Shown here piece after piece: positions 33,052-36,090 of a stretch of 38,690 bases of DNA. The DNA lies in contig JAJKIP010000216.1 of the NCBI GenBank assembly GCA_021154405.1, positions 1 to 38,690 of the forward strand, read 5' to 3'. Below the pieces are notes generated by a model. The model was not told the DNA's origin, did no database searches, and saw only the letters and a program-made list of their open reading frames with translations. Each line of letters starts with the position of its first letter. Positions within the stretch are counted from its first letter, which is position 1. The stretch is from Segetibacter sp. GTDB lineage: Bacteria; Bacteroidota; Bacteroidia; Chitinophagales; Chitinophagaceae. The position numbers and the translations under genes were made by a program.

Positions 33052-34233
33052 TTATTCTTCGAGCAGGTTCATATCTTCCGGCAATCCAAGATCAATGGTA
33101 TTCTGACCAGCTATCCCTTCAATTGATCCACGGATATGGGCGGCACTCAGTAATACTTTTTCCAATTGCTTCTCTCTTGATTTCCACAAACGCTCCATGG
33201 CTTCCCGTTCTTTCTGAATTGATAATTTCATGCTGGCAAATCCTTCCCGGATCGCTTTCCATTGTTCAGAGAATTCATTGCTTAATAAATAATCATAGAG
33301 TAATTGCATTTTATCACCACGATTATCATTTGTCTTTGCAGCGGCATTAACCTTTATCACTCCATCTCTCAATAAGGCTGCCATAGGTTTTACTTCTGAA
33401 AATGAGCAGATCCATACGCCATCCTTCAGCCCAAAACAGTCCATATCTTTTGGCATGGTGCGGGTCACAATGACTGCAATGTCGGCACCATTTGCACGCA
33501 TATCAGATTTAAGCTTTTCGATCCAGTCGGATCCCCAGGCAGTAGCCCGTTTACTTTCATAGATGATCTTGCCACATTCCTGTCCAAAATTGTTCCGAAC
33601 GGTTTGAATGCAATCAGCTCCTCTTTTACCTTTGCCCACTTCAGTAATAAGATCAAATGGAAAGGCCAGGCGAAGCATTTCTTCAAGGGCCAGTTCCTGC
33701 ACTTCACCCTGTAACTGGGAAGAACCCTGGTCTGCTTTTCTACGCATTTCCTCTGCCAGTTTTTTCTGGTCATCCAGCTGCTTTTCCAATTCCTTCATAC
33801 GGAATTGGTATTCTGTCTCGCGCGCAGCAACTTTTTGTTCTTCGATCTTGCGAATATCTTCAGCCAGTTTCTCGCGATCGCGCTGTAATTGTTTTTGAAC
33901 AGTGAGATCAATTTCTGCTTCACGATTCTTCAATTCCATTTCCTTGCGGAGATAGTCAGCTTCTTTCTGCCGGGCATCTTTCAGCTTTTCCTGGTTTTCC
34001 TTCTGCTCCTGCAGCAGCAGGTTTAATTTATTCTCATAATCGGAGGCGATCCTTTTACGGGTGCTCTCTTCGATCTGTTGCTGCTGCTTCATTTTCTGGT
34101 CATCGAATTCCTTCTCTTTCTTTTTCTTCCAGTCTTCCATCTGGGAACGAAGCTCTTTTTGAATCTCGTCCCGGATCGTGTCTGTAGGTTCAAACTCGTG
34201 GCCACAATTTGGACATTTGATATTTTCAGTCAT
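33052..34233 (-). CDS. DUF2130 protein: zinc-finger-like start, long coiled coil, PD-(D/E)XK-like core
   Basis: A 393-residue cytoplasmic protein of the DUF2130 family. It begins with a single CPNCGHEF knuckle (C7, C10). Residues about 20-175 are a continuous, highly charged coiled coil. The conserved domain (about 178-370) contains GADCIQ (D207) followed by KIIYESKRA (E226, K228), which fits the D...ExK active-site pattern of the PD-(D/E)XK nuclease superfamily, with E184/E185 on the preceding helix as a possible fourth residue. The family is widespread, its function poorly known. The upstream gene on the same strand encodes a HARE-HTH-like protein with an SSB-type tail, so a DNA-related role is plausible. 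Nuclease activity is inference. Confidence 0.85.
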   Translation of the reverse strand: MTENIKCPNCGHEFEPTDTIRDEIQKELRSQMEDWKKKKEKEFDDQKMKQQQQIEESTRKRIASDYENKLNLLLQEQKENQEKLKDARQKEADYLRKEMELKNREAEIDLTVQKQLQRDREKLAEDIRKIEEQKVAARETEYQFRMKELEKQLDDQKKLAEEMRRKADQGSSQLQGEVQELALEEMLRLAFPFDLITEVGKGKRGADCIQTVRNNFGQECGKIIYESKRATAWGSDWIEKLKSDMRANGADIAVIVTRTMPKDMDCFGLKDGVWICSFSEVKPMAALLRDGVIKVNAAAKTNDNRGDKMQLLYDYLLSNEFSEQWKAIREGFASMKLSIQKEREAMERLWKSREKQLEKVLLSAAHIRGSIEGIAGQNTIDLGLPEDMNLLEE

Positions 34234-34518: not shown

Positions 34519-35022
34519 TCAAAAAGGTAAATCGTCGACCCCAATTGATGTTCCATAAGATTGAGTATCGTTCGATATATAATTATCTTTTCCGGGCAAG
34601 GAATATTCAAATTCTCCACGCGTTCCTTGTTTTTTTTCGAATTCTTCTCCAGCTTTTACACTGAGTGTTGAGGATACGCTAGCGATAGCTCTTTTTCTAT
34701 CGGCGATAAATTCAGGTTCATATTCTGTAAGTATATCTACAATTTCCCTAGTTGAAACTGGTCGGTTTACTTGCTCCATAGCAAATGTGATTTTTCTCAC
34801 CCATGGCCACTTGTCATCGTACACATCTGCATTCGCAAGAGGGGTAATTTCGGTGGCACCTTCCGTACGTTCTGCTTGTCTCAGCTGCATAATGATGGCA
34901 CTAATCTCTTTTACCTCCTTTTCAAGCATATTTATTTGTGCTTTAAGGAACTTTTGCCTCTCCACATAGAACAGGACTAAATCCTTTACATGGCCATCCT
35001 TTATTTGGATATTAACAGGCAT
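34519..35022 (-). CDS. Coiled-coil / HARE-HTH-like protein with SSB-type C-terminal tip
   Basis: A 167-residue protein with no name I can give. Residues 12-50 form a coiled coil. Residues about 73-142 (PWVRKITFAMEQVNRPVSTREIVD, then a second helix pair RKRAIASVSSTLSV and a wing RGEFEYSL, each within this span) resemble the HARE-HTH or related winged-helix domain found with restriction enzymes and chromatin factors. A polar, probably disordered linker (143-160) leads to the last residues VDDLPF, ending DDLPF. That tip is the protein-interaction peptide at the end of bacterial single-stranded DNA-binding proteins, but no OB fold is present. The start ATG is preceded by TATTTTCG, one base off the -7 consensus. 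It lies 285 bp upstream of the DUF2130 gene. Function is unknown. Confidence 0.75.
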   Translation of the reverse strand: MPVNIQIKDGHVKDLVLFYVERQKFLKAQINMLEKEVKEISAIIMQLRQAERTEGATEITPLANADVYDDKWPWVRKITFAMEQVNRPVSTREIVDILTEYEPEFIADRKRAIASVSSTLSVKAGEEFEKKQGTRGEFEYSLPGKDNYISNDTQSYGTSIGVDDLPF

Positions 35023-35491
35023 TGTGACATTGTTTATACGAAAATAGGGGAATATTAGTAAACTTTTTTATGGAACTCTAAAAAAACATCTATTTCTTGA
35101 AGTACTTTTATTTCTAGCATGTCTAGGAGGTCTAAAATATGTCATTATTCTGTCATTTAAGGTTAGATTTATGATTTAAATAGAAGGTATATTTGGAATT
35201 TACAAAAACTACATTTCAAATAGCATAAAAAGCTTATGTAATTTTGTTCTTGAGCTAATAGAATATCCTGACTAATTTCTTGACACAAAACGGGTTACTG
35301 GAAGAACTGGCTCATTGTTTTAATTCCAAATCTAAAGATCATAACTTCCCATAGTTTATATTATCCCGGAGAGATTACCGGGAACTGATCTTGCACCCTA
35401 TTTCCTGAATCAGGTTCATTAACCGGCTCGGGACCAACGGTTCAAAATTTACTTACATAATTTTCTAGAACTTTTTGCTATGCGAAAACGA
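35023..35491. other. Gene-free, mostly AT-rich stretch with a cluster of small hairpins
   Basis: No gene of credible length was found. A word TATATTTG (35188-35195) matches the -7 promoter consensus on the plus strand, without a good TTTG at -33. A relatively GC-rich patch at 35369-35441 holds three successive hairpins: CCCGG / CCGGG, CCTGA / TCAGG with a one-base loop, and AACCG / CGGTT. It could be a structured RNA, but it matches no riboswitch I can name. The minus-strand promoter of the HARE-HTH-like gene should lie near 35039-35070. Confidence 0.35.
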
Positions 35492-35674
35492 TTATCGTTG
35501 CGCATGGCCGTCAGGCTCCTGGCTGTTCAACGTGCCTTGTTGGTTCAACCTTTGTTTTGCTATCATCCAGTCACCGCGGCCCCGTTGATCTCCAATGATC
35601 CCCCTGGCTGCTAATACAGATAGGTATGCATTCCGCAGCCAGGATAAACCAAACAAGGTCATCATAATCGCCAA
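35492..35674 (-). pseudogene. Possible C-terminal remnant of a glycosyltransferase 2-type gene
   Basis: A 60-codon minus-strand frame. Residues LSWLRNAYLSVLAARGIIG followed by GRGDWMIAKQRLNQQG resemble the cytoplasmic end of Bacteroidota family 2 glycosyltransferases, where a hydrophobic helix leads to a short G-x-x-x-W-x-x-x-x-R segment. A stop codon immediately precedes the frame and no catalytic domain is present, so if the resemblance is real this is a fragment. A chance open frame in decaying DNA is a serious alternative. Confidence 0.2.
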
Positions 35675-35683
35675 TTACATACC

Positions 35684-36077
35684 GGAAAATTTAATCAGTC
35701 AGATAAACCAAAAACCATCGTTAAATCATTGCTGGACGTGATGAATAAGGAGGTTAAGGCCATTGCTGCAGACGAGATTACAGATCATTATGACGATCAT
35801 GAGTTAGCATTGCTTTATCTAAAAGCAGGCGACCTCGATAGGGCGCTGGAACATGCGATGCATGAATATAAATGCCATTTAAAGAATATTGATGTAAATG
35901 AGAATGTTGCCTTGGTGTATTATAAGAGGGGAGAAGGAGAAGGCAGTGAAGTACCTGGAGGAGGCGCTGAATAAGGAATCGCAGACCCCGAATTTATTGC
36001 ACAGGGCTGAATTGATTTACGCGATGGTTGGGCATACCGAAAAGGCCAGAGAGATCACAAAAAAAAGGATACAATAA
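35684..36077 (+). pseudogene. TPR-repeat protein fragment disrupted by a frameshift
   Basis: Two adjacent frames together read as a TPR protein. The first ends ALLYLKAGDLDRALEHAM ... VNENVALVYYKR, and the second continues EKEKAVKYLEEALNK and LIYAMVGHTEKAREITKKR before a TAA at 36075-36077. They join at a G4 run (35928-35931); removing one G restores a single frame. Frame one without correction ends at 35974 in a low-complexity tail. Coding character extends upstream to about 35684, but the first ATG is at 35741, so the N-terminus is also lost. It is therefore probably a 5'-truncated, frameshifted relic rather than a sequencing error alone. Confidence 0.55.
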
Positions 36078-36090
36078 GGCATGGAATGAA

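Follow-up and report, generated by a model that had tools for sequence, protein, structure and literature searches.

What does a small protein without an OB fold do with the C-terminal tip of a bacterial SSB? The question is raised by a gene in the window, by which we mean the whole stretch of DNA analyzed, an entire contig of 38,690 bases from a 4.64-Mb genome that is 83% complete. The open reading frame at 34519-35022 (minus strand) is intact and encodes 167 amino acids. The initial annotation had placed D-D-L-P-F in its last five codons, and this reading holds, as the protein ends in ...SIGVDDLPF directly before the TGA stop codon (Table 1).

Gene and protein architecture

We found one copy of the gene in its own genome, flanked by a DUF2130 gene (33052-34233, minus strand) and a gene-poor stretch. 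The DUF2130 gene (PF09903, E 7e-67), which has the same orientation, follows 285 bp downstream, and the N-terminal half of its product looks coiled-coil-like by eye. Few genes are seen at 35490-36080, where a short TPR-like open reading frame fragment is perhaps a decayed gene.

Table 1. Features of the SSB-tipped gene in the window
Feature	Position	Strand	Basis
Whole gene, 167-aa coiled-coil/winged-helix protein with SSB-type tip	34519..35022	-	Open reading frame and homologues
Long helix, probable coiled-coil segment, residues 9-56	34855..34998	-	AlphaFold2 helix; coiled-coil proteins among non-significant PDB profile matches
HARE-HTH-like winged-helix core, residues 68-143; predicted helices 74-85, 91-101, 109-134	34594..34821	-	PF05066 signal in family, core model, VIA-align
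Poorly conserved, probably disordered linker, residues 144-162	34537..34593	-	pLDDT <50; low identity over six homologues
SSB-type C-terminal tip D-D-L-P-F, residues 163-167	34522..34536	-	Sequence, homologue ends, host SSBs
Stop codon TGA	34519..34521	-	Sequence

The full-length AlphaFold2 model, built on a two-sequence alignment, consists of the long N-terminal helix (residues 9-56, with pLDDT 91-93 for residue block 21-40) and of a region, residues 116-161, with pLDDT below 50. Since its overall pTM is 0.26, we used only the broad features of this model, according to which the tail before the tip is probably disordered. When residues 62-148 were modeled alone, the core formed the three-helix unit of Table 1 with a mean pLDDT of 71 and a pTM of 0.56, and wing strands were absent from this model.

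The initial annotation had described the core as a winged helix resembling HARE-HTH, a description that is supported at the level of the family. The window protein had no match to PF05066 (HARE-HTH) in the Pfam scan. Of 13 family members in the alignment, the window protein among them, 5 gave a PF05066 match at E<=1, the best at 1e-5; one homologue (L041) scored 26.3 bits against the curated cut-off of 25.9, and the other four matching members fell under it. The family profile also matched a genuine HARE-HTH protein (L063; PF05066 E 4e-15). At the family level, the sequence comparisons thus support a HARE-HTH-like winged helix. Structure prediction gave weak winged-helix matches for a core model without wings: the best 14 rows of VIA-align were all forkhead winged helices, at Z 5.3-6.1 and rmsd 2.3-4.1 Å, where Z 8 is the tool's level for a firm match. 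No match with E <0.001 was returned by Foldseek with the core model, nor by the fold search with the full-length model, which is weak. Searching PDB sequences with the single window protein gave one match, at E 0.51, and the PDB profile search gave mostly coiled coils, none of them significant (best E 0.058). No restriction-enzyme or chromatin domain is fused to the winged helix of the window protein, which has a coiled coil in front of it and an SSB-type tip behind it.

The claim that an OB fold is missing was upheld, as Pfam and NCBIfam scans of the window protein, read down to E 10, matched neither an SSB nor an OB-fold family. The protein was also unmatched in PADLOC. It thus differs from an SSB in having a coiled coil and a winged helix in place of any detected SSB/OB domain, and resembles one in its acidic, probably disordered tail that ends exactly in L-P-F, as in the SSBs of the hosts.

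Recurrence of the tip among divergent homologues

Relatives were searched for in overlapping samples of genomes and, with the genome of the window counted, were found in 12 of 195 genomes at E<=0.01, 13 of 396 at E<=0.001, 17 of 395 at E<=1e-4, 29 of 394 at E<=1e-6 and 7 of 324 at E<=1e-10. Phages, plasmids and viral contigs returned none when queried with the window and G951 proteins, the only two used there. A class-wide search found relatives, none of which was a new carrier of the tip, and a search of genome contigs for the family found one locus, G085. Among the matches listed, with at most 30 loci taken from each search, we could distinguish 61 family open reading frames at E<=1e-4. The eight with the highest scores were G451, the window gene, G057, G085, G951, G1019, G497 and G283, in a ranking by a profile (A2) whose alignment comprised six of the eight and which therefore favors those.

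Four of these proteins end exactly in LPF: the window protein (...VDDLPF), G057 (...EELDLPF), G085 (...LEDLPF) and G1019 (...DDDDDSLPF). Two others end close to it, G451 in ...EPFDLPFK and G951 in ...DDDINPFE, and the G497 and G283 proteins terminate where the winged helix ends. Among the matches listed, an LPF end therefore occurs in 4 of the 61 open reading frames, all within the top eight by score, and in none of the 53 outside them. The expectation that DDLPF is kept at the very C-terminus of homologues is hence borne out in part: LPF recurs in divergent members, and a tip throughout the family is contradicted. Of 14 aligned rows, which are the window protein and 13 homologues picked by us, four end in LPF and eight have neither the tip nor a near tip, five of these eight being linked to IS1595 transposases (see below). 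The tip is therefore not needed for the basic role of the family, and was either added to, or lost from, an older passenger gene.

Where a tail is present, it is net acidic over the last 12 residues in all six members (charge -1 to -6), and the linkers of the divergent tip-bearing homologues barely align. Identity over six homologues is 37.9% in the core, 15.7% at residues 141-163 and 88.9% at the tip columns, a contrast that depends on the alignment and favors the tip because the six rows were picked for their tips. These values bear on whether the tip was simply inherited once and has been unconstrained since, or is a coincidence. Consistent with unselected descent, LPF is found in just 4 of the 61 open reading frames among the matches listed, and the window protein, G085 and G1019, three of the four with an LPF end, are mutually nearest in a tree of the 14 rows that is poorly resolved, with 7 of 11 inner branches open. 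Against it, identity to the window protein is only 36% for G085, 45% for G1019 and 26% for G057, all of them tip-bearing, and the identity contrast between linker and tip makes unselected inheritance the least likely of the readings considered, with very little probability left to it.

We also asked how often such an end arises in other reading frames. Shuffling six tails, which had themselves been selected for tip-like ends, yielded at most two LPF ends in 200,000 trials compared to the four observed; the less selected figures are those given above for the 14 rows and the 61 open reading frames. Among 836 distinct reading frames (at least 100 codons between stops, at least 80 from the first Met, with a real stop; many of these are certainly no genes), LPF ends were seen in 21, namely the four family members, 16 SSBs that had been retrieved deliberately and one DUF3127 protein. 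Before the SSB loci were added, six of 621 frames ended in [DENS][LIVM]PF: the same four family members, the SSB of the window genome and the DUF3127 protein. In the window genome, D-[LF]-P-F followed by TAA or TAG occurs at four places, corresponding to one SSB, one frame of 91 residues and two sites outside long frames; as this pattern misses TGA stops and tips without D, it is not a count of the proteome. The 91-residue frame, which is below the length limit of the 836-frame count, ends in HDLPF and runs antisense within a frame of 418 residues, and we regard its DLPF end as due to chance. The DUF3127 protein (L038:10868-11242, minus strand; PF11325 E 1.6e-17) shares the ...DDLPF end with the window protein and differs from it in its Pfam domain and its length of 125 amino acids; its gene lies about 1.7 kb outside an IS1595 element.

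In Streptococcus mutans, a published scan detected LPF ends only in SsbA, SsbB and one hypothetical protein (PMC5143411). In some strains of this species, the last three residues of SsbA, LPF, suffice for degradation by ClpXP (PMC5143411), and the end of the window protein could likewise be a turnover signal of a regulatory protein rather than a docking tip. In the same paper, LPF goes unrecognized in three S. mutans strains, and a heading says the same of other bacteria. The acidic residues before LPF, which are dispensable for that degron, are used in SSB-type docking and are kept in these tails. We consider a degron improbable.

Match to the SSBs of the hosts

A PF00436 search of nine genomes gave 24 matches. 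Sixteen of them have an LPF end, one ends in MPF and one in LPG, five are forms lacking a tip and one is so close to a contig end that its tail cannot be seen; at least one LPF-ended SSB is present in each of the nine. The third-last L is common to the four exact family tips and the LPF-ended host SSBs, while the SSB of Escherichia coli has I at this position (PMC10238739). In G451, the homologue ends in ITEPFDLPFK and one SSB of the same host in ITEPFDDLPF. The SSB-like character of the tip proposed in the initial annotation is confirmed: the tip sits at the very end of divergent homologues, the tail before it is modeled with low confidence, and the SSBs of the hosts share its LPF.

Ligands of the SSB C-terminus (SSB-Ct) type bind to a conserved pocket of RecO, RecJ, PriA, RecQ, ExoI and other enzymes. 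Published pockets hold the side chain and carboxylate of the terminal Phe and upstream Asp residues (PMC10238739), and an EDDLPF peptide was co-crystallized in the pocket of RecJ (PMC4846377). The one-residue extensions of G451 (+K) and G951 (+E) would remove the terminal Phe carboxylate, and therefore these two proteins may not bind. The extensions would also be evidence that selection on the tip is not strict in these two copies. As for possible partners, RecO is present in the genome of the window, and the RQC domain of RecQ was not found in this 83%-complete assembly.

Residence of close relatives in IS1595-family transposons

An IS1595 transposase gene adjoins six of the eight best-scoring homologues and 10 of the 61 family open reading frames among the matches listed; the other 51 have none in the flanking DNA examined. 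None of 49 control loci (25 with DinD, 24 with SSB) has an adjacent IS1595 transposase. Seven of the ten transposases were confirmed by Pfam (PF12762/PF12760), and those of G173, G124 and G729 were called by our own profile, made from three IS1595 transposases including that of G173.

We then looked at nine of the ten IS1595-linked loci, all except L064, for GG...CC ends and an exact duplication of 8 bp on either side of the two genes. Eight of the nine (L016, L017, L037, L038, L039, L040, L106 and L109) carry such ends as GG-ended inverted repeats, in which 11 to 14 of the outermost 14 bases match, together with perfect 8-bp duplications around both genes; in L042 no such pair was detected. 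All six IS1595-linked members of the eight closest homologues fall among the positive elements. In the literature, 8-bp duplications are reported from the IS1595 family, GG ends are reported from its Merlin relatives, and the family is said to have usually one transposase gene (PMC8101967). The elements of the relatives thus resemble IS1595 insertion sequences and transposons (PF12762, NF033547) in transposase, GG inverted repeats and 8-bp duplications, and differ from them in carrying extra genes. Close relatives of the window gene are often passengers of IS1595-family transposons, and this link is a larger finding than the tip itself.

Several details of these elements were noted along the way. 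The G085 element (L016:2670-7099) contains a gene resembling SocA/Panacea antitoxins (PF13274 E 2e-22) as well as further small genes with no significant Pfam match, and another copy of the inverted repeat starts just past its right end and duplication. In the G057 element, the transposase gene (L017:6811-7746, plus strand) is split by one in-frame stop. The transposase at L106:8981-10153 (plus strand) has a C-terminal I-HmuI NUMOD-like domain (PF22083).

The window copy itself lies outside any element found. In the window, as in L104 and L105 (the latter scanned for only 1.5 kb on each side), there are no GG inverted repeats with an 8-bp duplication and an IS1595 transposase. A relic IS1595 element was ruled out for the window by the absence of both a repeat/duplication pair and significant transposase similarity. 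Having neither transposase, ends nor relic, the window copy is therefore an orphan. The gene is also not a general trait of IS1595 elements, as it is carried by only one of 30 IS1595 loci among the matches listed, from a search with matches in 22 of 79 genomes. In the literature, searched mostly beyond subscription papers, we found no transposon protein bearing an SSB tip.

The tails of SSBs also contact their own DNA-binding domain. Together with the sharing of one element by close homologues and a transposase, this raises the alternative that the tip acts within the protein or the transposon, with the acidic tail autoinhibiting the winged helix or contacting the transposase or the transposon ends. 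Autoinhibition based on acidity would not require an exact terminal L-P-F, and the tip is kept in members without a nearby transposase (window and G1019). An internal role is therefore improbable in our judgment.

Distant, tipless homologues are found in other surroundings. One (L004) adjoins an IS21 IstB ATPase (PF01695 E 2.6e-67), with similar frames seen by eye in L014, and two (L003 and L013) adjoin a frame that by eye looks like a serine recombinase. The wider family may therefore serve several mobile elements.

DinD neighbors and the possibility of a decoy

The orphan homologues of G951 and G1019, one with a near tip and one with the tip, are divergent neighbors of DinD (NCBIfam NF008573, E 1e-113 and 3e-109). 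In E. coli, DinD acts on filaments of RecA, and the two neighbors hint at a context of DNA damage rather than at a rule. A general pairing of DinD with the gene was ruled out, as none of 25 other DinD loci has the gene within about 1.5 kb; DinD belongs to another family and is a neighbor in two loci only. The DinD protein encoded beside the G951 homologue (L104:8596-9450, plus strand) matches a candidate defense model of PADLOC, PDC-S13 (E 7e-110).

These neighbors could be taken as a sign that the protein is a decoy or inhibitor, whose tip would vie with SSB for partners and dampen repair or recombination by the host in the vicinity of the element. An SSB-type tip without an OB fold might compete whether DNA-bound or free. 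A weak interaction at a single site would, however, need high expression against abundant SSB, and the 25 DinD loci without the gene weaken the argument from the neighbors. We find such competition unlikely, although less so than the other alternatives discussed.

A proposed adaptor for enzymes of the SSB hub

The gene and its tip, the recurrence of that tip, the transposon residence of the relatives and the match to host SSB tips are best explained, in our opinion, if the window gene is an orphan member of this family and encodes a DNA-bound adaptor that docks SSB-partner enzymes through its SSB-type tip. We assign this reading a probability of about 50%. The closest relatives in this family are often accessory genes in IS1595-family transposons of Chitinophagales-type Bacteroidota. 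The N-terminal coiled coil would probably dimerize the protein, and the HARE-HTH-like winged helix would bind DNA. The disordered tail would hold out the last residues, a copy of the host SSB tip, for docking in the SSB-Ct pocket of host repair and replication enzymes such as RecO, RecJ or PriA. The docked enzymes might then be brought to the DNA bound by the protein, for example at transposition gaps or forks, by recruitment rather than competition. The suggestion that the protein mimics or extends the SSB hub accordingly keeps its basis in a tip that is real, recurrent and matched to the hosts, and is limited by the eight aligned rows devoid of it.

Work on SSB partners usually concerns the enzymes by which the tip is read, and to our knowledge little is known of tip carriers other than SSB. 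Exact C-terminal LPF outside SSB is very rare among the loci examined, which provides a simple search rule for such carriers. More tentatively, one IS1595 lineage and its stand-alone relatives, including the window copy, may encode DNA-binding mimics of the SSB tip that plug into the SSB hub without binding single-stranded DNA and steer enzymes of gap repair and replication restart to chosen DNA. If this is true, mobile DNA would have a natural route to borrowing the repair and replication machinery of its host, in the form of a passenger that combines a DNA-binding domain with an SSB-type tip.
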